Of a DNA stretch of 64,000 nucleotides, positions 8,800 through 60,920 are shown piece after piece. The translations under genes and the position numbers were made by a program. The first letter of the stretch is position 1. Every line of letters begins with the position of its first letter. Source of the stretch: Micrococcaceae bacterium Sec5.1 (GTDB taxonomy: Bacteria; Actinomycetota; Actinomycetes; Actinomycetales; Micrococcaceae); assembly GCA_039636795.1 (NCBI GenBank), contig CP143430.1, positions 3,720,001-3,784,000 on the forward strand, given 5' to 3'. The notes under the pieces were generated by a model. The model did not search any database. It worked only from the letters and a program-made list of their open reading frames with translations, and was not told the DNA's origin.

Positions 8800-8927
8800 G
8801 GTCACGAGTGCCAGCGCTAAACCCCGGTTTGCTGGCCGGCAACCCTCCATTCGCGGTGGGGTGCCCCGGGTGACGACCTGGCCGGTCCGGAACGGATACG
8901 GCAAGCGCGGATCCCCATAGGGGGTCC
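8800..8927 (+). promoter_or_regulatory. SAM-IV riboswitch with downstream hairpin
   Basis: Bases 8800-8916 follow the actinobacterial SAM-IV aptamer closely: GGTCACGAGTGCCAGCG at the 5' side, the CCCCGG...GCTGGCCGGCAACCC core, GCGGTGGGGTGCCCCGGG and the closing GACGACC, then the pseudoknot arm ending GGCAAGCGCGG. A hairpin at 8909-8927 overlaps the end of the aptamer, and GAGTGAGG lies just after it before the ATG at 8945. No T-run follows, so control is probably at translation or by sequestering the ribosome site. S-adenosylmethionine is expected to reduce expression. The gap 8618-8945 holds only this and the hisN terminator. Confidence 0.92.
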
Positions 8928-15130: not shown

Positions 15131-15133
15131 CTG

Positions 15134-15499
15134 TGGAGATGGGGGGAATTGAACCCCCGTCCGATGTCGTTTTGTCAGGGCTTCTCCGGGCGCAGTTTGC
15201 GTCGGATTTTCTCGGCCCCAGCCATCCTGCAAACAGGTGGCTGATCCGGGCCTAGTCATCTAAAAGTCCCGTTTACCTCAATGACGAAGGCAAACAGCAG
15301 TGGCTATCTAAATGACGCCAGGAACCGGGGCGATAGCAACCCCGGGCTGACGGACTGTCTTACTGCTTAGGCAGCGAGAGCGAAGTCAGTGCGCTTAGAT
15401 TCGGCACTTATTGGTTTGCAGACAGCGTTTACGAGATAATTCTGCATCCTCGGCCCGCTTCACCTGTCGCGACTAACATCGTCGAAACCGATCATCCCC
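15134..15499 (-). ncRNA. ssrA: Transfer-messenger RNA (tmRNA)
   Basis: On the minus strand the RNA begins GGGGATGATCGGTTTCGACG and ends with a T-arm-like GGGTTCAATTCCCCCCATCT followed by CCA, so the CCA is encoded. The tag frame, after ATAAGT, reads AESKRTDFALAA then TAA, matching actinobacterial tags that end in ALAA. Several pseudoknot-forming GC stretches lie between. It frees ribosomes stalled on broken mRNA and marks the product for proteolysis. Its protein partner SmpB is encoded 132 bases upstream in the same direction. Confidence 0.97.
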
Positions 15500-20709: not shown

Positions 20710-21162
20710 CTATTGGGTGAGCCGAGACCTGGCAGTGGATCTTGCTTCAACGGCGATTCCTTCAGGCAGCAGGAAGGTGACCAAGGGCGGATGGGCGATG
20801 GCACTTAACACCACCACCGCTGTACCGCCGGGAGAACTACCCGTCCCGGAAGAAACTTCCAAGTGATCGTGCATGGAGAAGGCTCCGCTGTTTCCCAGAT
20901 ACAGATCAACCGCGCCCAGCACCCGCTCGTCCACCAGCGACGCCGAGGGCACACTGCTTCCCTCGATGTCACCCACCACATACGAATCTGCAGCGGCAAG
21001 TGCGGCGCCATCAGCCAAGGACAGAAGTTTCTTGTGTTCCAAGTAAATCGCGGATGTAGCCATTACCACCGCAGCCAACAGGAGTGCCAGAAGTACGAAG
21101 CCTACGATCAGCACGCTCATTTGTCCCTCTTCGGCTTTGCTCCCTATCCGTCCCATCGCCAC
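20710..21162 (-). CDS. TadG/TadE-like pilus-locus protein (Rv3654c-like)
   Basis: Last gene of the Tad pilus operon. A 150-residue protein with a single N-terminal membrane helix (MSVLIVGFVLLALLLAAVVM) after EEGQ, followed by a Ser/Gly/Val-rich domain typical of TadE/TadG pseudopilins, with the frequent LADGAALAAAD run. GTG 21162 has GAGGAGG seven bases upstream. The residue at +5 after the Gly of the likely prepilin site is Leu, not the Glu of canonical class III prepilins, so processing is uncertain. Confidence 0.75.
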   Translation of the reverse strand: MAMGRIGSKAEEGQMSVLIVGFVLLALLLAAVVMATSAIYLEHKKLLSLADGAALAAADSYVVGDIEGSSVPSASLVDERVLGAVDLYLGNSGAFSMHDHLEVSSGTGSSPGGTAVVVLSAIAHPPLVTFLLPEGIAVEARSTARSRLTQ

Positions 21163-21190: not shown

Positions 21191-21691
21191 TCACTTAAAA
21201 TGCCCCACGACTTGCGTGGCAGAGGCATTGAGCACAGCAGCATTCAAATGTAGCGAGTCGCCAAACGGAACCATCGGCAAAGGGACAGTCAATCGAACCC
21301 AAACTGTCACTGCTGCGCCTGCTGAAAGGCAGTCTGCCCGGTCGCACGTGATCTCCATCGTGGCTGCTTGCGCCGGGTAGCCGTAATCCCTCAGCGCCAA
21401 GAGGACGCTCTGTTCTGCGCTGGTCCTCGCGAGGACAGGTTCACTCTGGGAGACAAAGACCTTGGCCGCCTGATCCGCCGCACCCACCACCGCAAAGGAT
21501 CCGCCTTGGATTTGGCCTACGGTTACCAGGAAATAGACCACAGGGACCATGAGCAACAATGCCAGGAACGTAAACTCCACGATGGCACTGCCGCGCTGCC
21601 TTTTGACGTCGGTACGCATACTGGATGTGTCTTGATATGGGCCGAACGCCAATTGCCAAGCCCTGTTCAGCCAATGCCCAAGGCGATTCAT
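21191..21691 (-). CDS. TadE-like pseudopilin
   Basis: A 166-residue protein with the best prepilin motif in the operon: KRQRG followed by SAIVEFTFLALLLMVPVVYFL, giving Gly at -1 and Glu at +5. The exported domain carries a Cys pair in ITCDRADCLSAGA. The start is uncertain: ATG 21691 leaves a leader of about 37 residues; ATG 21619 would leave a short leader. It probably forms minor or assembly pseudopilin structures in the Flp pilus system. Confidence 0.8.
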   Translation of the reverse strand: MNRLGHWLNRAWQLAFGPYQDTSSMRTDVKRQRGSAIVEFTFLALLLMVPVVYFLVTVGQIQGGSFAVVGAADQAAKVFVSQSEPVLARTSAEQSVLLALRDYGYPAQAATMEITCDRADCLSAGAAVTVWVRLTVPLPMVPFGDSLHLNAAVLNASATQVVGHFK

Positions 21692-21725
21692 TATCGAACC
21701 TGGGCACGGCACCGGGGCCAGGACA

Positions 21726-22208
21726 TTACTTTGGAAGGGCAGCATGTCCGGTAACCTCCATGAGTCCACCGGGGCCGATAAGCCCCACAACTGGCATAGG
21801 CGCCCTCACGGTCACTTCCAACGCCCGAATTCCATCCAGAGTCCTTTCAGCGGTGGTCACATCTGCCGCGAAATCTCCATTGAGCGCCGTTTCGATCAGC
21901 TCGGACGTCCTGGCCTCCGCATCCATAACCGTTCGATCGGCAAGGGTTCCATATCGCGCTCCGGACGCGGCGGCATCAACAAGTGTGTTTCGGACATGAA
22001 GGACAAGCGTGAGCTGGACGATTGACATGAACAGCAACGTCAGGAGGGCACCAATCATCACGAAATCGATAACCGCGGAACCTCGTTCCCCACTATTAAC
22101 TGCACACGGATTTTTATCTGTGCAGCGAATTTTAAGTGCACTTGGACTTTCAAATCCACAGGGCAGGCAGAATGGGCGCTTTTGGCTGCGGGACCACACC
22201 TGCCCCAT
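21726..22208 (-). CDS. TadE-family protein
   Basis: A 160-residue protein with the TadE-like segment ERG then SAVIDFVMIGALLTLLFMSIVQ and an exported domain containing VRNTLVDAAASGARYGTLADR, a stretch typical of TadE homologues. At +5 from the Gly the residue is Asp in place of the usual Glu. The long, Cys-containing leader before it suggests the true start may be further downstream. The ATG at 22208 is 4 bases after the previous stop, so the pair is coupled. Confidence 0.8.
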   Translation of the reverse strand: MGQVWSRSQKRPFCLPCGFESPSALKIRCTDKNPCAVNSGERGSAVIDFVMIGALLTLLFMSIVQLTLVLHVRNTLVDAAASGARYGTLADRTVMDAEARTSELIETALNGDFAADVTTAERTLDGIRALEVTVRAPMPVVGLIGPGGLMEVTGHAALPK

Positions 22209-22211
22209 TTC

Positions 22212-22454
22212 CTAACTACCCACCTTGGCCATAGCCTGCGTGAAGAGGTCCGCCAGTGCTGGCGATGCAATCGCGAGGAGCCCTGCGACCAATATGGCGG
22301 ACATTAGGGTGATCATCACCCATCCCGGGACGTCACCGCGCTCACGGTGTTCCAAGGGTGATGCCACATTTCGCGCGATCACAGCGAAGGCCCATGAGAA
22401 AAACGGCAAAGTCATTGTATTTGCAGAAAACGAGTGTCCATACTTCTTCTTCAT
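22212..22454 (-). CDS. Small pilin-like membrane protein in the Tad operon
   Basis: At the position where mycobacterial Tad operons encode the Flp pilin there is this 80-residue protein. It has one hydrophobic helix, WVMITLMSAILVAGLLAIAS, preceded by RERGDVPG and followed by a short tail (LFTQAMAKVGS). The RG-D junction resembles a prepilin cleavage site, but the +5 residue is Trp rather than Glu, and the helix lacks the EY motif of Flp. ATG 22454 is chosen, with GGGGAA upstream; a TTG at 22466 is possible. It is the best candidate for the main pilin, by context. Confidence 0.65.
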   Translation of the reverse strand: MKKKYGHSFSANTMTLPFFSWAFAVIARNVASPLEHRERGDVPGWVMITLMSAILVAGLLAIASPALADLFTQAMAKVGS

Positions 22455-22538
22455 TATTTTCCCCAATGTGTGTGTTTGTGCTGGTAATGTGCGACCGCCG
22501 GATAAAGGTAATTGGTCAAAGATCCCGGCTCGGTCCTG

Positions 22539-23480
22539 TCAAAGGCTCAACTGCAAAGCGGCGAGCGCCGGAAACGCTGCGAAAATGACCGTTAGCGGAA
22601 GGACGCCGAATACAAGGGGCACCATCATGCCGATTTCTTTTCGACCGGCTGATTCCATCAGTTCCCGCTTCGCAGCGTCGCGGACGTCGGCAGCTTGTGC
22701 GCGAAGTACATCGGCCAATGGAGTGCCCCGCTCCACAGCCACCACTAATCCGTCGACGAATCGGACCAGGGGCGGCAGTTGCGTTCGGGTAGAGAAAGCT
22801 TGGAGTGCCTGGATCAGCGACTTTCCTGATCTCGTGTCCGCCAGGACGGCGCTGAATTCCTTGGCGAGCTCGCCATTGGAGGTACGTGAGATTCGGTCCA
22901 TCGCACCCACGGCGCTCTCTCCGGCGGCGACGGCAAGCGCCATAAGTTCGGCAAGGCTGGGAAACTCCGCAAGAATCACCGATTCCCGGCGCTTAGTCTT
23001 TTGGCCAAGCAGGAAATCGCGGAGCACGTAACCACAAAAGGCACCCCCGATGACCGCCACCAGTGATGGAAGCGGGCTGAATCGTCCGGAGGCGGCACCC
23101 AGCCCCACGCCGATCACAGCAAGCAGGAAGCCGCCTGCGGCCCACACGAGTTGCTCGGCGCGGAAATCCACCACGCTTTTCGCGGAGCCGGCTCGAGCGA
23201 GTCTCTTGCGCAAGGCTGGGCCGCCACTGTTAAAACGGGACAAGTAGAGAATTCCGTCCTGCATAACGGGGCGGAGAATGCGTTCCAGTGGTCCAAAGGG
23301 TGTGAGATTATGCGTAGGCGCCCGGAGGAGGCGCGACTCGAGATTCTGCGACTTAAGCTGTGGGTCAATCCGCTCCGCGAAGGTCCGGCCACGCATGAAT
23401 GGAAGCCGCACCAGGATCAACCATGTCCCTCCGCCCAGGAATAAACCAAGGAGCGTGGCGGTCGCCGTCGAGGTGCTCAT
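22539..23480 (-). CDS. tadC: Tad secretion membrane protein TadC
   Basis: A 313-residue T2SSF-domain protein. It has an N-terminal helix, a pair of helices around residues 107-150 and a C-terminal pair (MMVPLVFGVLPLTVIFAAFP). The cytoplasmic domain (AEFPSLAELMALAVAAGESAVGAMDR, then RTQLPPLVRFVDGLV) is typical of the inner-membrane platform of Tad/type IV pilus machines. It starts 4 bases inside the tadB end, showing coupling. The partner TadB is encoded next to it. Confidence 0.9.
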   Translation of the reverse strand: MSTSTATATLLGLFLGGGTWLILVRLPFMRGRTFAERIDPQLKSQNLESRLLRAPTHNLTPFGPLERILRPVMQDGILYLSRFNSGGPALRKRLARAGSAKSVVDFRAEQLVWAAGGFLLAVIGVGLGAASGRFSPLPSLVAVIGGAFCGYVLRDFLLGQKTKRRESVILAEFPSLAELMALAVAAGESAVGAMDRISRTSNGELAKEFSAVLADTRSGKSLIQALQAFSTRTQLPPLVRFVDGLVVAVERGTPLADVLRAQAADVRDAAKRELMESAGRKEIGMMVPLVFGVLPLTVIFAAFPALAALQLSL

Positions 23481-24334
23481 CGGAGGACCCGCTCATCCTC
23501 GGGTAATGCCCCAATCCGCAGCATGACTGCGTAACACAAAACGGAGACAACAAGTCCGCCGAGGAGCACCGCGGCACCAATTCCGGAGTTGTAGGCAAGC
23601 ATGGCTTCAGGCCTACCGGCCATGACCACCAGGACTATCCAGGGTGCCGCGACAGCCAGCCGTGCACCGTTTACGGTCCAGGATTGCCTGGCCTCGAGTT
23701 CGCTGCGCGTCCGGGCGCTTTCCCGAAGAAACCCGGCCAACGTGCCCAACATGCGCCCGAGGTCGGAGCCACCCACTTCCCGGGTCATGCGGAGTGCCTC
23801 GATGATCCTGTCGGCCACGGGATCTGCCAAGCGGTCCTTCAGTTTGTTGACAGCCGCATCGAACTGACCGCCCGATCTGTAATCGGCACCAAAATCAAGG
23901 AAGAGGCTCCGCAGTTCGTCCGGCCCGTTATGCCCAAGTTGGATCAATGCCTCTGGCAAAGCCAGGCCGGCGCGAATGGCGGATCTCAGATGGTCAACAA
24001 CATCCGGCCACAGTTGGCGCAGAGTGGCACGCCGTTTCCGCGCCCGCCGACGCACGAGGCCGAAAGGGATCCAAGCGCCGAAGACTCCGAAGCAAAGGCA
24101 GACGGGCAATGACGCGGTCACAACGAAGAACAGGAGCATCGCAACGACTCCACATCCAGCGCAACTGAGAAGGAGGCCCGCACTGGTGACCCTTTCTATG
24201 CCTGCCGTGAGCAAGAGAAGTTCCAGGGGCCGTGGCCGGGGTTCCCTGACCCGGAGGTCCGGTGGATGGTCCCAGGTGGACCACCAAACAAGTAATGCTC
24301 CACTGCCACAAAGGATCCCCAATAGCGGGGCCAT
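23477..24334 (-). CDS. tadB: Tad secretion membrane protein TadB
   Basis: A 285-residue T2SSF-domain protein, the second inner-membrane platform component. Residues 75-105 hold a helical pair and the cytoplasmic domain shows RQLWPDVVDHLRSAIRAGLALPEALIQLG and MTREVGGSDLGRMLGTLAGFLRES, both typical of TadB. Two C-terminal helices follow (LAVAAPWIVLVVMAG, GIGAAVLLGGLVVSVLCY). Its start codon overlaps the last base of tadA. Confidence 0.9.
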   Translation of the reverse strand: MAPLLGILCGSGALLVWWSTWDHPPDLRVREPRPRPLELLLLTAGIERVTSAGLLLSCAGCGVVAMLLFFVVTASLPVCLCFGVFGAWIPFGLVRRRARKRRATLRQLWPDVVDHLRSAIRAGLALPEALIQLGHNGPDELRSLFLDFGADYRSGGQFDAAVNKLKDRLADPVADRIIEALRMTREVGGSDLGRMLGTLAGFLRESARTRSELEARQSWTVNGARLAVAAPWIVLVVMAGRPEAMLAYNSGIGAAVLLGGLVVSVLCYAVMLRIGALPEDERVLR

Positions 24335-25557
24335 CAGTTCAGCTCCAGCAGCGCGGCGACATCAAAACCAGCCACGGCAAACTTTTCGACCGCCGGTATG
24401 GAGTTGGCTTTGGGCTGCAACTGCCCCTCAAGCATGCGGAACACCACCGAGGATTCGATGACCCCGTTTTCCACGCGGCGTCCCAAGGACAGGATTTCGG
24501 TTACCAGCCTCCGCCCATTGGCCTGCCGGGCACAATGCACCACTAAGTCAATGCACGAGGCAACTGTGGGCAAGACGAATGCACTGGAAATATTCGCCCC
24601 CGCCAGCAAAGGCAGGGTGCAAATCTTGGTGACGGCGTCATGGGCCGAATTTGCATGGACCGTGCACATGCCAGGAAGCCCGGAATTCAACGCGATCAGC
24701 ATGTCCAGGCTTTCGGCTTCGCGGACTTCGCCGACCACCAGGCGGTCAGGTCTCATGCGCAGGGCTTCCTTAACGAGCCTTCGCAACGGAATTTCTCCAT
24801 GACCTTCCAGGTTCGGTTGCCTGCATTGGAGACCCACGACGTCACGCAGAGGGAGTTGCAATTCAAAGATCTCTTCAACGGTTATTACGCGCTCACGTGA
24901 GCCAATGCTTGCTGCAAGGCAGTTCAACATAGTGGTCTTCCCTGCCTGGGTGGCACCGGAAACGAGGATGTTGAGTCCGCTTGCAACGGCTGCACCAAGG
25001 AACCTGGCAGATTGGGGTGTGAGGCTTCCCAACTCCACGAGATGCTCAAGCCGGTTAGCCCTGGCGATGAACTTTCTGATGTTGACAGCCCAGTGCTTCC
25101 TGGTCACGTCTGGAATAGCAACGTGCAAGCGTGACCCGTCCGGAAGGGCCGCGTCCACGAACGGTGACGACAAGTCCAGCCGCCGCCCCGAGCTCTTGAG
25201 CATCCGCTCGACGAGGTCGCGGATTTGTTGCTCGCTCAGGGTAATTCCGGTTAGCTCGGACTCCCCATTACGCGCGACATAAATTTCGTGCGGCGCGTTG
25301 ATCCAAATTTCCTCAATTCCAGGATCATCCAGGAATGGCTGCAGCGGCCCGAATCCCGCTACGGTGTCAAATACGTGGCGCCGGGCGGTTTCCAAATGTC
25401 CCAATGGCGGAAGGGGCCCAAGGAGAGCCCTTTCGTCATAGTCGTTGACCGCGTCCTCAATCAAGCGCCGGACTTCCGCGGTCTGTTCAAGAGGGTCCAA
25501 ACCCCGGCGTCTGATAAGTTCGCGGACCTCACCCTCCACAATCCCAACGGCCTCCAT
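24334..25557 (-). CDS. tadA: Tad/CpaF-family secretion ATPase TadA
   Basis: A GspE/CpaF-family hexameric ATPase that powers Flp pilus assembly. Walker A GATQAGKTT (about residue 200), the His box in MCTVHANSAHDA, and RPDRLVVGEVREAESLDML (Walker B region) are present. ATG 25557 is chosen since GGGGGGAAAT lies just before it, giving 407 residues; an 18-residue longer reading from 25611 lacks such a site. It is the first gene of a seven-gene operon that runs to 20710. Unlike many Tad loci, tadZ and cpaB are not adjacent but are 33 kb away in the window. Confidence 0.92.
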   Translation of the reverse strand: MEAVGIVEGEVRELIRRRGLDPLEQTAEVRRLIEDAVNDYDERALLGPLPPLGHLETARRHVFDTVAGFGPLQPFLDDPGIEEIWINAPHEIYVARNGESELTGITLSEQQIRDLVERMLKSSGRRLDLSSPFVDAALPDGSRLHVAIPDVTRKHWAVNIRKFIARANRLEHLVELGSLTPQSARFLGAAVASGLNILVSGATQAGKTTMLNCLAASIGSRERVITVEEIFELQLPLRDVVGLQCRQPNLEGHGEIPLRRLVKEALRMRPDRLVVGEVREAESLDMLIALNSGLPGMCTVHANSAHDAVTKICTLPLLAGANISSAFVLPTVASCIDLVVHCARQANGRRLVTEILSLGRRVENGVIESSVVFRMLEGQLQPKANSIPAVEKFAVAGFDVAALLELN

Positions 25558-25656
25558 ATTTCCCCCCAAAAATGCTCTTTGTCCGTATCCGAGAGGCGTA
25601 TCTCGAGTCACCTACGCTAGGGGAGCCGAAGTTTAGGGCCAAGTCCCGCATGAGGG

Positions 25657-25669
25657 ATTGTGGATAACT
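25657..25669. promoter_or_regulatory. 13-bp motif upstream of tadA shared with the cpaB-tadZ operon
   Basis: ATTGTGGATAACT lies 100 bases upstream of the tadA start and recurs exactly at 60656-60668, 108 bases upstream of the cpaB-like start, in the same orientation to each gene. The core TGTGGATAA equals a DnaA-box sequence read backwards. Confidence 0.7.
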
Positions 25670-25845
25670 ATTGGAACAAGAGTCCCTTTGGCATCGTCTG
25701 TACCACTAGTCACTCCAGTTTCCGAATGTTAGGGTAAAGCCCGTTAGGAGCTGGCCTTTGGTCCCATGCGCAGGCGCCCGCCCCGGAGCTTGTCAGCAAG
25801 CCACACCATGCGCCGCTGAGCCGCGGCACAGGGCCGGAATTGGAT

Positions 25846-28566
25846 ATGACAAGAACCCCCGTAAAGACGGTCCGTCGCATGCCGCTTGCAAGGACTGGAA
25901 TCGCCCTTTGTCTGGTCCTCCTTGCCGGGACTTTTCCCGGCATTCCTGCATGGGCGGAGGACTCCGGCCCTCGGCCAGCGCCAGCCCCGATCGCCGAACA
26001 GAAGTCGCCAGCGACGACTCCACTTCTGCCATCGACAGACTCCGGGGCCCTCCCCGCGGAAAGCGCACCGCCGGTGACGAACCAGCAGCAGGTGCCAACC
26101 GCCGTCGAGCCTTCACCTGCTGTTGCTCCGCAGCCGGCCAACGGCCCCTCTATGGACGATCCAGCTGGGCTGCCAACCGCCAAGGCAATGCCCGGCAATG
26201 CTCCGGACGCCGAGAGCATGAAGGCAGCAATGCGAGCCGCGATTCCAGCGGGCGGGGCAGAAATGGGTCAGCGCTCACCCAGGGTCACCGCGGCAAAGCA
26301 AGGCAACGGAAATTCAGGGCCTGCTGGCTCACGCACAGTGGGGCAGGTGGTGCCGATGGACGCTGACCCGGGTCACTGGAGGCCAACCATCGGTATCCAT
26401 GGACAGGACGTCAGCGCGCACCAGGGCAACGTCGACTGGCAGGACCAATGGAACGAAGGATCCCGCTGGGCTTACGTCAAGGCCTCCGAGGGCAACTATT
26501 ACCTGAACGAAAACTATGCACAGCAATATGACGGCTCGCGGAACGTCGGTATGGTTCGTGGCGCCTATCACTTCGCCATTCCAAACTGGTCTTCGGGTGC
26601 GGACCAGGCGAGATACTTCGTAGCGAACGGCGGCGGATGGACTGCAGACGGTTACACGCTTCCTCCTGTCCTGGACATCGAATACAACCCCTACGCTGGA
26701 CGCACCATCAATGGCTTCTATTTCGGCAACACGTGCTACAACATGTCAAAGGCGCAACTTGGGCAGTGGGCTGCCGATTTCGGCAACACGGTCAAAGCCC
26801 TGACGGGGCGCTTTCCGGTCATTTACAGCACCACGGATTGGTGGAATACGTGCGTAGGCAACTCCACGTTCGGGAGCTACCCGCTGTGGATCGCGTCGTA
26901 CTGGAACAACCCCACGAATTCTCCTGGATCTTTACCGGCCAGTTGGGGCGACTACACCATGTGGCAGTACAGCAGCACCGGGCCGTTTGAAGGTGATTCC
27001 AACATCTTCAACGGCAGCTACGATCAGCTGCGGACGTTCGCCCGTGGTGCCTCAGCCCCTTCCAACCCGTCCATCAAGTCCGGCGCCGACCTCCTGGCCA
27101 CAAGCTCGACGGGCCGGCTCGATGCATTTCCAGCCGACGGCAGTGGCCGGATCACTGGTCCTGTGGCCATCGGTTCGGGGTGGACCGGTGCAAAATCGCT
27201 GTACGTCGTTGATTGGAACCAGGACGGCGTCCAGGACATTCTTTCGCAGTGGTCCGACGGGACACTGAGAGTCTTCCGCGGCGCTCCCGGCGGGGGCTTT
27301 TATGCTCCCCTCCAAGTCGGTTCCGGCTGGCAGGAAATGTCCCTGACGGTCGGGTGGTGGAACTCCAAAGACGGCTATCCGGGCGTAATAGGACAGGACT
27401 ACCTGGGCAATTTGTACCGGTACCCGAACACGGGAGGTGGAACGCTGGGAAATGGGGTGCTGATCGGGACCGGCTTCAGCGGCCACCAGTTGAACCAGAT
27501 CGACTTCGATGGCGACGGTAGCCAGGACATCCTCACGCGCACCTCCGATGGCACCCTTCGCCTTTATCGTTCGAACGGCTTGGGCAGCTTCCTCAACGAA
27601 GCCGCCCAAGTAATTGGTTCCGGATGGAATGGCATGACGTCGGTAAGTTCAGCGATCGGCTTCAGCGGGGCCGGGTCCCAGGGACTCCATGCCCGCACCG
27701 CCAACGGCGACCTCTACTATTACCCGGCGGTCTCGGGTGCGTGGGGCAACCGCAGCCTCATCGGACTTGGCTGGGATGACGCGATCCGGATCAGCGACGC
27801 TCCCCTGGATGTTGAGACAACACTCGGCATCGACCAGGAGGATGTGGTCGCGGTCCGTGCCGATGCCAACCTCTACCGCTATCCCGGTACGGGTACCACG
27901 GCGCTCCTGCCGGAGGATCTCATGGGAACAGGGTGGGCCGGCCTGAAGGCCGGGTTCGTCACGGATTGGAACGGGGACGGCGCCTTGGACATCGTGGCGC
28001 AATGGTCCGACGGCCGGCTAAACGTCTACCCGGGCAGGACTGGCAGCGGTTTTGGGACCCCCATCGCCCTCGGCAGCAATTGGAAGGACTGGACGCTAAG
28101 CGTTGGGACATGGAAAAAGGCCGATGCACACCCCGGTCTCGTAGGATACGACTCCACGGGTCGCCTGTACTACTTCAGCAACCCCACCGGGAAGACCGTG
28201 TCCACCGGTATCTCCATTGGAGTCGGTTGGAGCGGTTTGGACATAGCGCAAATGGACTTTGACAAAGACTCAAATGCCGATCTCCTGGCCAAAAACCCAG
28301 CTGGCGATCTGAAACTGTACCGTTCCAACGGCACCGGCAACTTCATGCAGGAACCTGCAGCGGTGGTCGGAACAGGGTGGAACGTCGTTACGAGTTTCGG
28401 TGCGGTCCGCGGATTTGCCGGAGCCGGCTCCAGCGGTGTCATCGCCCGGACCACCGCTGGCGAGCTGCGGTACTACCCTGTGGGTTCGAACAGGTCGTGG
28501 GGAACAACAACCCGCATCGGTACAGGCTGGAATTCCCTGACCATTCTGGCACCCGCGGCAAAATAG
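25846..28566 (+). CDS. Secreted GH25 lysozyme with C-terminal FG-GAP/VCBS-like propeller
   Basis: Signal peptide (RTGIALCLVLLAGTFPGIPAWA), a Pro/Ala-rich linker to about residue 180, a GH25 muramidase domain (about 182-395) and a propeller of repeated blades (about 405-906). GH25 catalytic acids lie in GQDVSAHQGNVDW, AYVKASEG and PPVLDIEYN. Blades have the form DWNQDGVQDILSQWSDGTLRVFRG, with DxDxDG calcium-type loops. The enzyme cuts the glycan backbone of peptidoglycan; the propeller probably binds the cell wall. ATG 25846 or a TTG six bases earlier may start it. It is divergent from tadA, so could remodel the wall for pilus export, though this is only a suggestion. Confidence 0.9.
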   Translation: MTRTPVKTVRRMPLARTGIALCLVLLAGTFPGIPAWAEDSGPRPAPAPIAEQKSPATTPLLPSTDSGALPAESAPPVTNQQQVPTAVEPSPAVAPQPANGPSMDDPAGLPTAKAMPGNAPDAESMKAAMRAAIPAGGAEMGQRSPRVTAAKQGNGNSGPAGSRTVGQVVPMDADPGHWRPTIGIHGQDVSAHQGNVDWQDQWNEGSRWAYVKASEGNYYLNENYAQQYDGSRNVGMVRGAYHFAIPNWSSGADQARYFVANGGGWTADGYTLPPVLDIEYNPYAGRTINGFYFGNTCYNMSKAQLGQWAADFGNTVKALTGRFPVIYSTTDWWNTCVGNSTFGSYPLWIASYWNNPTNSPGSLPASWGDYTMWQYSSTGPFEGDSNIFNGSYDQLRTFARGASAPSNPSIKSGADLLATSSTGRLDAFPADGSGRITGPVAIGSGWTGAKSLYVVDWNQDGVQDILSQWSDGTLRVFRGAPGGGFYAPLQVGSGWQEMSLTVGWWNSKDGYPGVIGQDYLGNLYRYPNTGGGTLGNGVLIGTGFSGHQLNQIDFDGDGSQDILTRTSDGTLRLYRSNGLGSFLNEAAQVIGSGWNGMTSVSSAIGFSGAGSQGLHARTANGDLYYYPAVSGAWGNRSLIGLGWDDAIRISDAPLDVETTLGIDQEDVVAVRADANLYRYPGTGTTALLPEDLMGTGWAGLKAGFVTDWNGDGALDIVAQWSDGRLNVYPGRTGSGFGTPIALGSNWKDWTLSVGTWKKADAHPGLVGYDSTGRLYYFSNPTGKTVSTGISIGVGWSGLDIAQMDFDKDSNADLLAKNPAGDLKLYRSNGTGNFMQEPAAVVGTGWNVVTSFGAVRGFAGAGSSGVIARTTAGELRYYPVGSNRSWGTTTRIGTGWNSLTILAPAAK

Positions 28567-58602: not shown

Positions 58603-59907
58603 CTAGCGCTTAAGCAGACCGAAGGCTCTGGTAGATCGGCCAAGGGATTTCCGATTTTGCTGGATAGGTGCACAGACTAACCCCGCGATGGCTTTTCGCA
58701 AGGGAGAGTCGGGCGATGATTCCAACAGGACAGATCCCGACAATAGTGCAGCATCGCACGCTTCCGCGTCTGCAGGTAAGTAGGCATCAACGCCATGGCC
58801 AGGGCCGAAGCGCTCCCAGGCCTCGGATAACTGCTGTCGGGGCGAACGGCCCACCGTGGCCCGCTTCACCTTATTGAGGAGCACCCGTGGCGTTGCCTGT
58901 GGAACCGCAGCTTCGAGCTCGGCAAGGCCACGGACCAATCGCGGGACGCCGATTGCATCCGCAGCCCCAACGGCAAAAACCTCGTCTGCCAGCTCCAAAC
59001 TGCGCAGGGTAGCGCCATTGCGGCGTGGCGCCATAGTGTCAAAGCTCAGTTCCTCATCTGCTTCCAGGCAGAAGCCGGTGTCCACGACAACCACCTCGGC
59101 CACTTGCTTGGCCCTTTGGAGGACAAGCGAGAGTGCGGAGGCCCTCAGTTCAGTCCAGCGGTCCGCCCTTGTGGTTCCAGTCAGTACTCGAAATCCACCG
59201 GTCTTGATGAAGACAGGCGTAGCAGCCCTGTCCAGTGCATCCGCATCCAGCAATCCTTGGTCAGCGAGCCTGCACGCCTGGGCGAGGCCCGCGGACTCCT
59301 CCAGCAGCCCAAGCATGGCCGATACGCTCGCACCGTAACTGTCCGCATCCACAAGAATCACGGACTTGCCTTCGGCCGCCAACTCGGCAGCCATGTTTAC
59401 CGCAACCAGAGTTCTTCCCGGAGCGCCCGTTGGTCCCCACACTGCTATCACCCTCCCCGCGCCGACCGCTTCTGGTTCTGGGGTTTCCGGCGCCAACTGG
59501 AATCCCGCAGATGAATCCGCGAATCCGGCGTCTGGAAACTTGCGGGCTCCAACGGGCCCACCGTGGCGGCCCACTGCATCGGAAATCCTCAGGGCAAGTG
59601 CGGCGGGCTCAATATCAGTGGACGCTGTTACTACACCAATAGCGGTGAGCCTGGAGACCTCCAGGGGGTCCACGGTCAGGGCGAGAATGGACACACCTAC
59701 GGCGGCCAGCCGGTCCACCAATGTAGCGGTTAATTCTTCGGAGCCTTCGGCAACGACGGCGGCCAGGGCAAGCCCGCTTTGGCAGGCAGCCATCAACTCT
59801 GCAAGCTCTGAACATCGCCGGACCACAGTGACGGGGCCATGCAAGCGCTCCAGCCCGCCAACTACGGCTTCCTGTGCCTGGCCAACGGTGATGACCGGGA
59901 TGCTCAT
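58603..59907 (-). CDS. TadZ/CpaE-like MinD-family ATPase
   Basis: 434 residues. An N-terminal receiver-like domain without phospho-acceptor features (about 1-125) is followed by a MinD/ParA fold: GPTGAPGRTLVAVNMAAELAA (a deviant Walker A with Arg where KTT-type Lys is expected), VILVDADSYGAS and VVVVDTGF. This is the CpaE/TadZ type that places Tad pili at the cell pole. ATG 59907 overlaps the stop of the cpaB-like gene (ATGA). The partner Tad operon lies 33 kb away. Mycobacterial Rv3660c (Ssd), next to tadA there, is the likely counterpart. Confidence 0.87.
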   Translation of the reverse strand: MSIPVITVGQAQEAVVGGLERLHGPVTVVRRCSELAELMAACQSGLALAAVVAEGSEELTATLVDRLAAVGVSILALTVDPLEVSRLTAIGVVTASTDIEPAALALRISDAVGRHGGPVGARKFPDAGFADSSAGFQLAPETPEPEAVGAGRVIAVWGPTGAPGRTLVAVNMAAELAAEGKSVILVDADSYGASVSAMLGLLEESAGLAQACRLADQGLLDADALDRAATPVFIKTGGFRVLTGTTRADRWTELRASALSLVLQRAKQVAEVVVVDTGFCLEADEELSFDTMAPRRNGATLRSLELADEVFAVGAADAIGVPRLVRGLAELEAAVPQATPRVLLNKVKRATVGRSPRQQLSEAWERFGPGHGVDAYLPADAEACDAALLSGSVLLESSPDSPLRKAIAGLVCAPIQQNRKSLGRSTRAFGLLKR

Positions 59908-60548
59908 TGGCTGATGCCCGCAGGGTTCCAAACAACAGACACCTTGGCGGCGTTGGCCTTGGCGCCCAGCAGCTTAGGCATCTGCTTGTCCGTGACCAGC
60001 ACCAGCACGACCGTTGTCTTTGAGGCACCGAGAGCACTCGAACCCGCTGTTACTTCTGCGATTTCGGCGCCGGGCAGCAATAGCTGTGGTTCTTCAAAAG
60101 CGTTTTGGGAACCGGGCATAGCGACCCAGACGTCCACCTTCGCCCCGGGAACCGCCTGCGCTGGAAGTGACTCTTCCATCGATATGGCAACAGGCTTGCG
60201 GTTCAGGACGTCAGACTGTCCGAGGCTCTTCTGTGGAACGAGTTGGCCCTTCTCAATTCTCTGTAGAGCTACCTTGCCCTGGTCAATTCCGTCCTCCACG
60301 GTTACATAGCCGGGCTCGACGTCATCCAAGCGAACCTGGACGACGGTTAAATCCTCAGGACCCACGGTTTGGCCAACCGAAATACCCTCCCGTGCGGCAT
60401 AAACCTGAGTGGTCCGATCAGCGGTACTGACAACTGAGATGACTCCGGCGACGGATACAAGCATGAGCAGCACTCCCACCAGTAGTCGTGGATCCCTCCA
60501 AGACGGCTTCTTCAACCTGTTGCCGGCGACGCCTGCACTCGGATCCAT
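59904..60548 (-). CDS. CpaB/RcpC-like SAF-domain pilus assembly protein
   Basis: 214 residues: one N-terminal membrane helix (LLVGVLLMLVSVAGVISVVS) after a basic stretch, then a SAF domain (YAAREGISVGQTVGPEDLTV to IEKGQLVPQKSL) and an exported region ending near the tadZ start. In Tad systems CpaB/RcpC acts on the exported side and may bind peptidoglycan. The ATG has GGGGGAGCAGG upstream. The gene begins a two-gene operon with tadZ. Upstream are the 13-bp motif shared with tadA and a divergent BldC-like gene. Confidence 0.82.
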   Translation of the reverse strand: MDPSAGVAGNRLKKPSWRDPRLLVGVLLMLVSVAGVISVVSTADRTTQVYAAREGISVGQTVGPEDLTVVQVRLDDVEPGYVTVEDGIDQGKVALQRIEKGQLVPQKSLGQSDVLNRKPVAISMEESLPAQAVPGAKVDVWVAMPGSQNAFEEPQLLLPGAEIAEVTAGSSALGASKTTVVLVLVTDKQMPKLLGAKANAAKVSVVWNPAGISQ

Positions 60549-60655: not shown

Positions 60656-60668
60656 ATTGTGGATAACT
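60656..60668. promoter_or_regulatory. Second copy of the 13-bp Tad promoter motif
   Basis: ATTGTGGATAACT, identical to 25657-25669. Its distance to the cpaB-like start is 108 bases, against 100 for tadA. A further shared stretch (ACTTYGGCT on the minus strand) follows at similar spacing in both places. Confidence 0.7.
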
Positions 60669-60704: not shown

Positions 60705-60920
60705 ATGCCCCGATTCCTGACTCTGGCGGACGTCGCCGAACAACTGCAGATAAATTCGCCGCAGGCCTATGCCCTGGTGCGCAGCGGTGAGTTGAAAGCC
60801 ATTCAGGTCGGAGGACGTGGTCAATGGCGCATCGAGGAAAAGATGCTGGAACAATACATCGAGGAGCGGTATGCCGAGGCCAGCCGAATGATCGAAGAGG
60901 CCAAGTCCAAGTCCGGATAG
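60705..60920 (+). CDS. BldC-like excisionase-family DNA-binding protein
   Basis: 71 residues with a MerR/BldC-type winged helix: FLTLADVAEQLQINSPQAYALV (recognition region), RSGELKAIQVGGRGQWRIEE and a helical tail EKMLEQYIEERYAEASRMIE. BldC of Streptomyces controls development and binds direct repeats as an asymmetric chain. ATG 60705 is chosen; upstream frame to 60564 is poorly supported. It diverges from the cpaB-tadZ operon, and 157 bases separate them, holding the motifs at 60656-60700. It is a plausible regulator of both Tad loci. Confidence 0.85.
   Translation: MPRFLTLADVAEQLQINSPQAYALVRSGELKAIQVGGRGQWRIEEKMLEQYIEERYAEASRMIEEAKSKSG

Follow-up and report, generated by a model that had tools for sequence, protein, structure and literature searches.

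A DnaA-box word upstream of Tad pilus, DNA-uptake and recombination genes in Micrococcaceae bacterium Sec5.1 and its relatives

The two Tad loci and their shared 13-mer

The window analysed here is a stretch of 64,000 nt which carries two separate Tad pilus loci. The larger run lies on the minus strand. It starts with tadA (24334..25557, -), encoding a T2SSE ATPase (Pfam PF00437, E=1.7e-40; ATG at 25557), and continues with the T2SSF genes tadB (23477..24334, -) and tadC (22539..23480, -; both PF00482). Downstream are a candidate Flp pilin of 84 aa (22212..22466, -), proposed from its position and a hydrophobic stretch only, with no Pfam match; a tadE-like minor pilin (21726..22208, -; PF07811, E=1.1e-9); a possible second TadE/F-like pilin with a weak match (21191..21790, -; PF13400, E=0.01, below its cut-off); and a gene for a tadG-like protein (20710..21162, -; PF13400, E=6.9e-9). 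The other locus, also on the minus strand, consists of cpaB (59904..60548, -), which has a SAF domain (PF08666; TIGR03177 below its cut-off), and a tadZ/cpaE-like ATPase gene (58603..59931, -; Pfam ParA/CbiA; TIGR03815 below its cut-off). Divergent from cpaB is a gene for an HTH_17 (excisionase-family) DNA-binding protein (60705..60920, +), assigned by PF12728 on the longer ORF and by TIGR01764 above its cut-off. Pfam bears out the gene identities given in the initial annotation: tadA, tadB and tadC with TadE- and TadG-like genes make up the first locus, and cpaB-tadZ the second. A GH25 lysozyme gene with FG-GAP repeats (25840-28566) is divergent from tadA, so that a wall hydrolase lies beside the pilus locus. 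The window also contains a tmRNA (15131-15499) and a SAM-IV riboswitch (8800-8913).

The 13-mer ATTGTGGATAACT is found exactly at 25657-25669 and 60656-60668 on the plus strand, with no further exact copy in the window. The whole genome (5,426,886 bases, both strands) has these two exact copies and three more with one mismatch. In gene direction both copies read AGTTATCCACAAT. One is separated by 99 bases from the start codon of tadA (ATG 25557, -) and the other by 107 bases from that of cpaB (ATG 60548, -), so the placement noted initially, with the same orientation to each operon, is confirmed. The second copy is also close to the divergent HTH_17 gene: 36 bases separate its end from the ATG at 60705. 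The equation of the element with a DnaA box holds as well: both copies contain an exact TTATCCACA (25659..25667, - before tadA; 60658..60666, - between cpaB and the HTH_17 gene), a word also present between dnaA and dnaN. The similarity that had been said to extend beyond the 13-mer (NNCNCATG, CATG, ACTTYGGCT) is not conserved; in the 36 genus promoters read for each operon, the sequence around the tadA box is variable and carries little information. What the tadA and cpaB promoters have in common is the 9-mer and a mostly-G base before it (36 genus promoters each). The 13-mer is rejected as the unit, conservation being limited to the 9-mer. Two paralogous TadA genes are present in the genome (43-44% identity); neither has an exact TTATCCACA within 100 kb.

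Conservation of the box and its promoter geometry

In a loose box match, position 3 is free and no more than one other position differs; an exact match is TTNTCCACA. Control windows lie 500 bp further upstream and are available only for loci with long flanks. Genus loci are the best 30 matches in searches of 30 to 121 genomes, to which a few loci of the family sample were added. One locus, in which cpaB is cut by a contig end (L072), was excluded before counting; another (L297) was retained and counted as a comEA miss. Matches at E <= 0.001 are found in 120/121 genus genomes for tadA and in 120/121 for cpaB.

Comparison of the two promoter regions in relatives, which had been proposed as a check, finds the box before both operons in every genus promoter read, so the lack of conservation that was to refute the proposal is not seen. 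It is present before tadA in 36/36 promoters (exact in 35/36; control windows 0/35) and before cpaB in 36/36 (exact in all 36; control windows 0/36). The element is also found at three unlinked sets of promoters in the genus: comEA (loose 29/30, exact 11/30, with loose matches in 4/29 of the wide control windows), recA (8/8, all exact) and rpsF-ssb (loose 28/30, exact 27/30). In other genera of the family it precedes tadA in 39 of 42 promoters (exact 31/42; loose control matches 1/22), cpaB in 36 of 42 (exact 24/42) and recA in 38 of 42 (exact 27/42). Control windows contain an exact box in none of the promoter sets, and loose matches are zero except for comEA and the tadA set of other genera. 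The cpaB box has an extended form, TTATCCACAGTTT, in the genus, as might be expected for a two-way promoter region. At the level of the order, 20 tadA promoters from 16 other families, counted without a control window, have an exact box in 12 cases and a box with at most one mismatch in 15; three more are boxed only on the other strand and two have no box. Some family genera have inverted boxes instead of, or besides, direct ones. The HTH_17 gene of Peptidiphaga gingivicola (L393) is preceded by an inverted pair, TTATCCACA-N4-TGTGGATAA, with no cpaB or tadZ match in the 12 kb covered.

The box has a fixed distance to a predicted -10 element. TAnnnT occurs 38-40 nt after the box in 36/36 genus tadA promoters, in all boxed comEA (29/29) and boxed rpsF-ssb (28/28) promoters, and in 8/8 recA promoters. 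In the window, the predicted -10 element of tadA is TAGCGT (25614..25619, -), 39 nt after the box. Across the genome, TAnnnT is found at exactly 39 nt for 7 of the 52 boxes, against a mean of 0.28 per other offset and at most 2 matches for each offset outside 37-41. These seven are tadA, comEA, recA, recQ, rpsF-ssb and two WXG100/T7SS-like loci. The latter two promoters belong to a WXG100 gene (genome C1:1013341, L108) and to a gene with a weak match to a T7SS signal (C1:5164499, L163). The cpaB promoter is different, with TAnnnT at 37-41 nt in 0/36 genus promoters and in 13/42 of those from other genera; the genome taken as M. luteus, which is outside the 42, likewise has the spacing at cpaB. 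Among the 20 tadA promoters from other families, only 5 have TAnnnT at 37-41 nt.

Relative to the predicted start, the box occupies about -60 to -52, with its centre near -56. This is a usual site for an activator which contacts RNA polymerase. By eye, the comEA and ssb promoters seem to be without a good -35 element, which would fit an activator-dependent promoter. The bases which follow the box in the genus vary with the gene. They are TA in 29/29 comEA promoters; at ssb, T in 27/28 and then A in 23/28; at recA, T in 7/8 and then A in 7/8. At tadA they are mixed (T in 18/36), and at cpaB they are oriC-like (G in 31/36). In the Sec5.1 genome, TAG directly follows 8 of the 52 boxes.

In PafBC / RecA-NDp promoters, a TGTC element precedes TAnnnT by about 8 nt. 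The recA promoter has such an element, TGTC(A/G)G, at a like distance of some 8 nt, in addition to the box; it differs from PafBC promoters by this box at about -56. Inspection by eye of up to 14 promoters per gene shows no TGTC element at tadA, comEA or ssb. PafBC is therefore rejected as the common factor, its element being seen at recA only.

The box at oriC and a proposed transformation regulon

The word TTATCCACA has 52 copies in the Sec5.1 genome, against 9 for the reversed word. Two of these lie in the dnaA-dnaN interval (genome positions 1466 and 1648; genes by Pfam), and further copies are upstream of dnaB and near parB. Because of this excess and these positions, TTATCCACA is, as judged by sequence, the DnaA box of this organism. 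Five TTATCCACA boxes lie within 2.5 kb at C1:17238-19706, about 18 kb from dnaA, and four other genus genomes have a copy of the 13-mer at 18.0-19.5 kb of contig 1; the cluster is perhaps a DnaA-titration or reactivation cluster. For the comparison with oriC, the 800 bases before dnaN were taken from 22 family genomes. An exact TTNTCCACA is present in 21 of the 22; G195 has none. Position 3 of TTNTCCACA is A in 31, G in 14, C in 9 and T in 3 cases, and 35 of 92 NTNTCCACA words have a different first base. This drift at positions 1 and 3 resembles that of the promoter boxes. The next base is G in 47/57 oriC boxes. A partner box 2-3 bp away (7/9 or better) accompanies 23/58 oriC boxes but 0/137 promoter boxes. 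The promoter sites are not built like oriC sites.

One element is found before genes for the pilus (tadA), DNA import (comEA), the recombinase (recA) and SSB (rpsF-ssb). Pilus motor, pilus accessory genes, DNA receptor, recombinase and SSB are the core of a transformation apparatus, and the likely unit is a transformation regulon, not the pilus alone. Of the initial proposal that one regulator serves both halves of the Tad machine, the part that stands is the element common to both loci. This element is not specific to the pilus, with comEA, recA and rpsF-ssb carrying it too. Among seven family genomes which lack Tad, the recA box is retained in six (last base G in three; G195 is the miss), so the factor is not competence-only and one dedicated to Tad is unlikely. 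Either the element predates the pilus or its use extends beyond it.

That the box is a shared regulatory site as such is very probable. We infer that it has an activator role and that its genes are co-expressed. A single TTNTCCACA near -56, followed after 38-40 nt by a TAnnnT -10 element, would switch the tadA operon, cpaB-tadZ (whose -10 is less clear) and comEA together, with comEC expected downstream; the recombination genes recA, rpsF-ssb and recQ would be under the same switch. DnaA would be the likeliest binder, and DNA uptake and recombination would then be linked to the cell's replication state. Taken as a whole, DnaA included, this statement is tentative and falls somewhat short of an even chance. 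We give slightly better than even chances to an order-wide actinobacterial competence regulon in which a reader of the DnaA box, either DnaA or HTH_17, directly activates the Tad pilus, ComEA/EC, RecA and SSB and may couple uptake to replication.

Among the candidate binders DnaA is slightly ahead, and HTH_17 comes next. DnaA is favoured by the use of the same word, with parallel drift, at oriC of family genomes, and by targets of the type which it controls in E. coli, namely replication and repair genes (PMC11317965). However, according to the same source DnaA of E. coli mostly requires a pair of boxes with a gap of 2-3 bp, and the absence of pairs at promoters, set against their frequency at oriC, has lowered our estimate for DnaA from an even chance to the tentative level given above. 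The base after the box also counts against it at comEA, ssb and recA, where TA replaces the G of oriC, but not at cpaB, where there is no such difference. The cpaB promoters of the genus, none of which has the -10 spacing, also count against the main reading. The same regulon might instead be read by HTH_17 (60705-60920, Mlut_14660 type), acting on the box TTATCCACATAG and also controlling its own promoter, which we consider rather unlikely. By position and sequence this protein is the counterpart of Mlut_14660. In a screen in M. luteus, all derepressed comEA/EC-promoter mutants but one were changed in the HTH_17/cpaB locus; the parental effect was seen again with R64W in HTH_17 (13-M93) and with a change just ahead of its start (13-M1090), and deletion of the HTH_17 gene proved impossible (PMC8467076). 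The HTH_17 gene is divergent from cpaB-tadZ beyond Micrococcaceae too and adjoins cpaB in 70/79 loci searched. Among the 45 loci listed (of 80), 9 carry an exact TGTGGANAA at 45-50 bases upstream of where the HTH_17 match begins; all nine are outside Micrococcaceae by name, and they include Demequina, Luteimicrobium, Sanguibacter, Cellulosimicrobium and Bowdeniella. A dedicated factor also fits the lack of pairing and the 3' preference of the boxes. Yet a cpaB change (13-M27) and a cpaB deletion derepress the comEA/EC promoter too, whereas the 5'UTR change 13-M89 alone does not (PMC8467076), so the effect need not run through HTH_17. A site at -56 points to activation, yet com expression seems to go up when HTH_17 loses its function, and its binding to the comEA/EC promoter is described as still to be verified (PMC8467076). 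The protein has no PDB sequence match that could indicate its DNA specificity; no box within one mismatch is found in 260 bases at 6 of the 45 loci listed, and the match between the box and the word at oriC would have to be coincidental.

A different, unnamed activator of the same regulon, with a site like the DnaA box (about TNTCCACATAG), would account for TA in place of the G of oriC at comEA, ssb and recA, for boxes unpaired at promoters and often paired at oriC, for a box to -10 spacing as strict as for a dedicated activator, and for the TAG after 8 of the 52 boxes. It has no candidate gene and requires one more factor, and its core and drift would equal those at oriC; we regard it as unlikely. 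It is very improbable that the boxes are only DnaA-titration or replication-control sites without regulation of the pilus. Such sites would fit the genome-wide enrichment of TTATCCACA and its clustering near oriC, but not a fixed orientation and 38-40 nt to the -10 element at several unlinked genes. The claim that the 13-mer repeat is unlikely to have arisen by chance is upheld. Although chance predicts 1.6 occurrences of TTGTGGATAA in the window when one mismatch is allowed, the only two exact 13-mers in 5.43 Mb are both at Tad genes and the core is kept in the promoters of 36 genus genomes; coincidence is already refuted by this conservation, and almost no weight is left to it. A transformation regulon with DnaA as its binder is the reading we keep, at the tentative level stated.

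Comparison with known systems

A promoter code common to the pilus, import and recombination genes bears on how high-GC Gram-positives, among them the Arthrobacter-type group, control natural transformation. It predicts that more genes belong to the system, and it may link uptake to chromosome replication. The ComK regulon of B. subtilis also takes in pilus genes. It has a different site and factor, and its pilus is ComG where here it is Tad. It likewise places comE, recA and ssbA under one control, and RecA and SsbA are among the proteins raised in competent B. subtilis (PMC7317962). M. luteus is described as having no ComK homolog (PMC4322843). The DnaA-regulated promoters of E. coli (PMC11317965, PMC8203912) have the same 9-mer, and their targets include replication and DNA-repair genes. 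As described there, most sites in E. coli consist of two boxes with 2-3 bp between them, whereas here the boxes are single and at a fixed 38-40 nt from the -10 element; unlike in E. coli, the targets here are pilus and DNA-uptake genes.

Transformation of M. luteus, which belongs to the same family, requires ComEC and genes of both tad clusters, tadB to a lesser degree (PMC4322843), and a CpaB knockout lowers it 10^4-fold (PMC8467076). These genetics are compatible with a competence regulon (PMC4322843, PMC8467076). The Mlut_14660/Mlut_14650 locus has the same divergent HTH_17 - cpaB - tadZ arrangement; transcriptional interference and mRNA structure are proposed for it, and the available part of that paper names no shared box (PMC8467076). 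The upstream signals and regulatory cascade of M. luteus competence remain to be identified, according to the available text of a 2026 study (PMC12849477). The word DnaA is absent from the available main text of the M. luteus competence papers examined. The titles and abstract starts of the open-access matches listed connect neither DnaA boxes nor this 9-mer to actinobacterial Tad or com promoters.

The genome G239, which we take to be M. luteus NCTC 2665, fits the published coordinates after a shift of 91 bases. Counted from the HTH start there, the box spans -97 to -89 and the 13-M89 mutation lies at -44, so this mutation does not hit the box. No box within one mismatch is found at comEA of G239, and none at recA. 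By eye, both genes have degenerate words 39 nt before a -10-like hexamer, a weak resemblance.

Other genes of the Sec5.1 genome also have the box. Four AbiEi_4, DUF559 or weak MTES_1575 genes (C1:4139737, 4201670, 4470518 and 4493616; L154-L157) have a TTATCCACA box 37-51 bases before the predicted start and are possible further members of the regulon. Two similar DUF6318-type loci (C1:430616 and 4994366; Pfam match at the first) have a box with TAGACT 40 nt after it.
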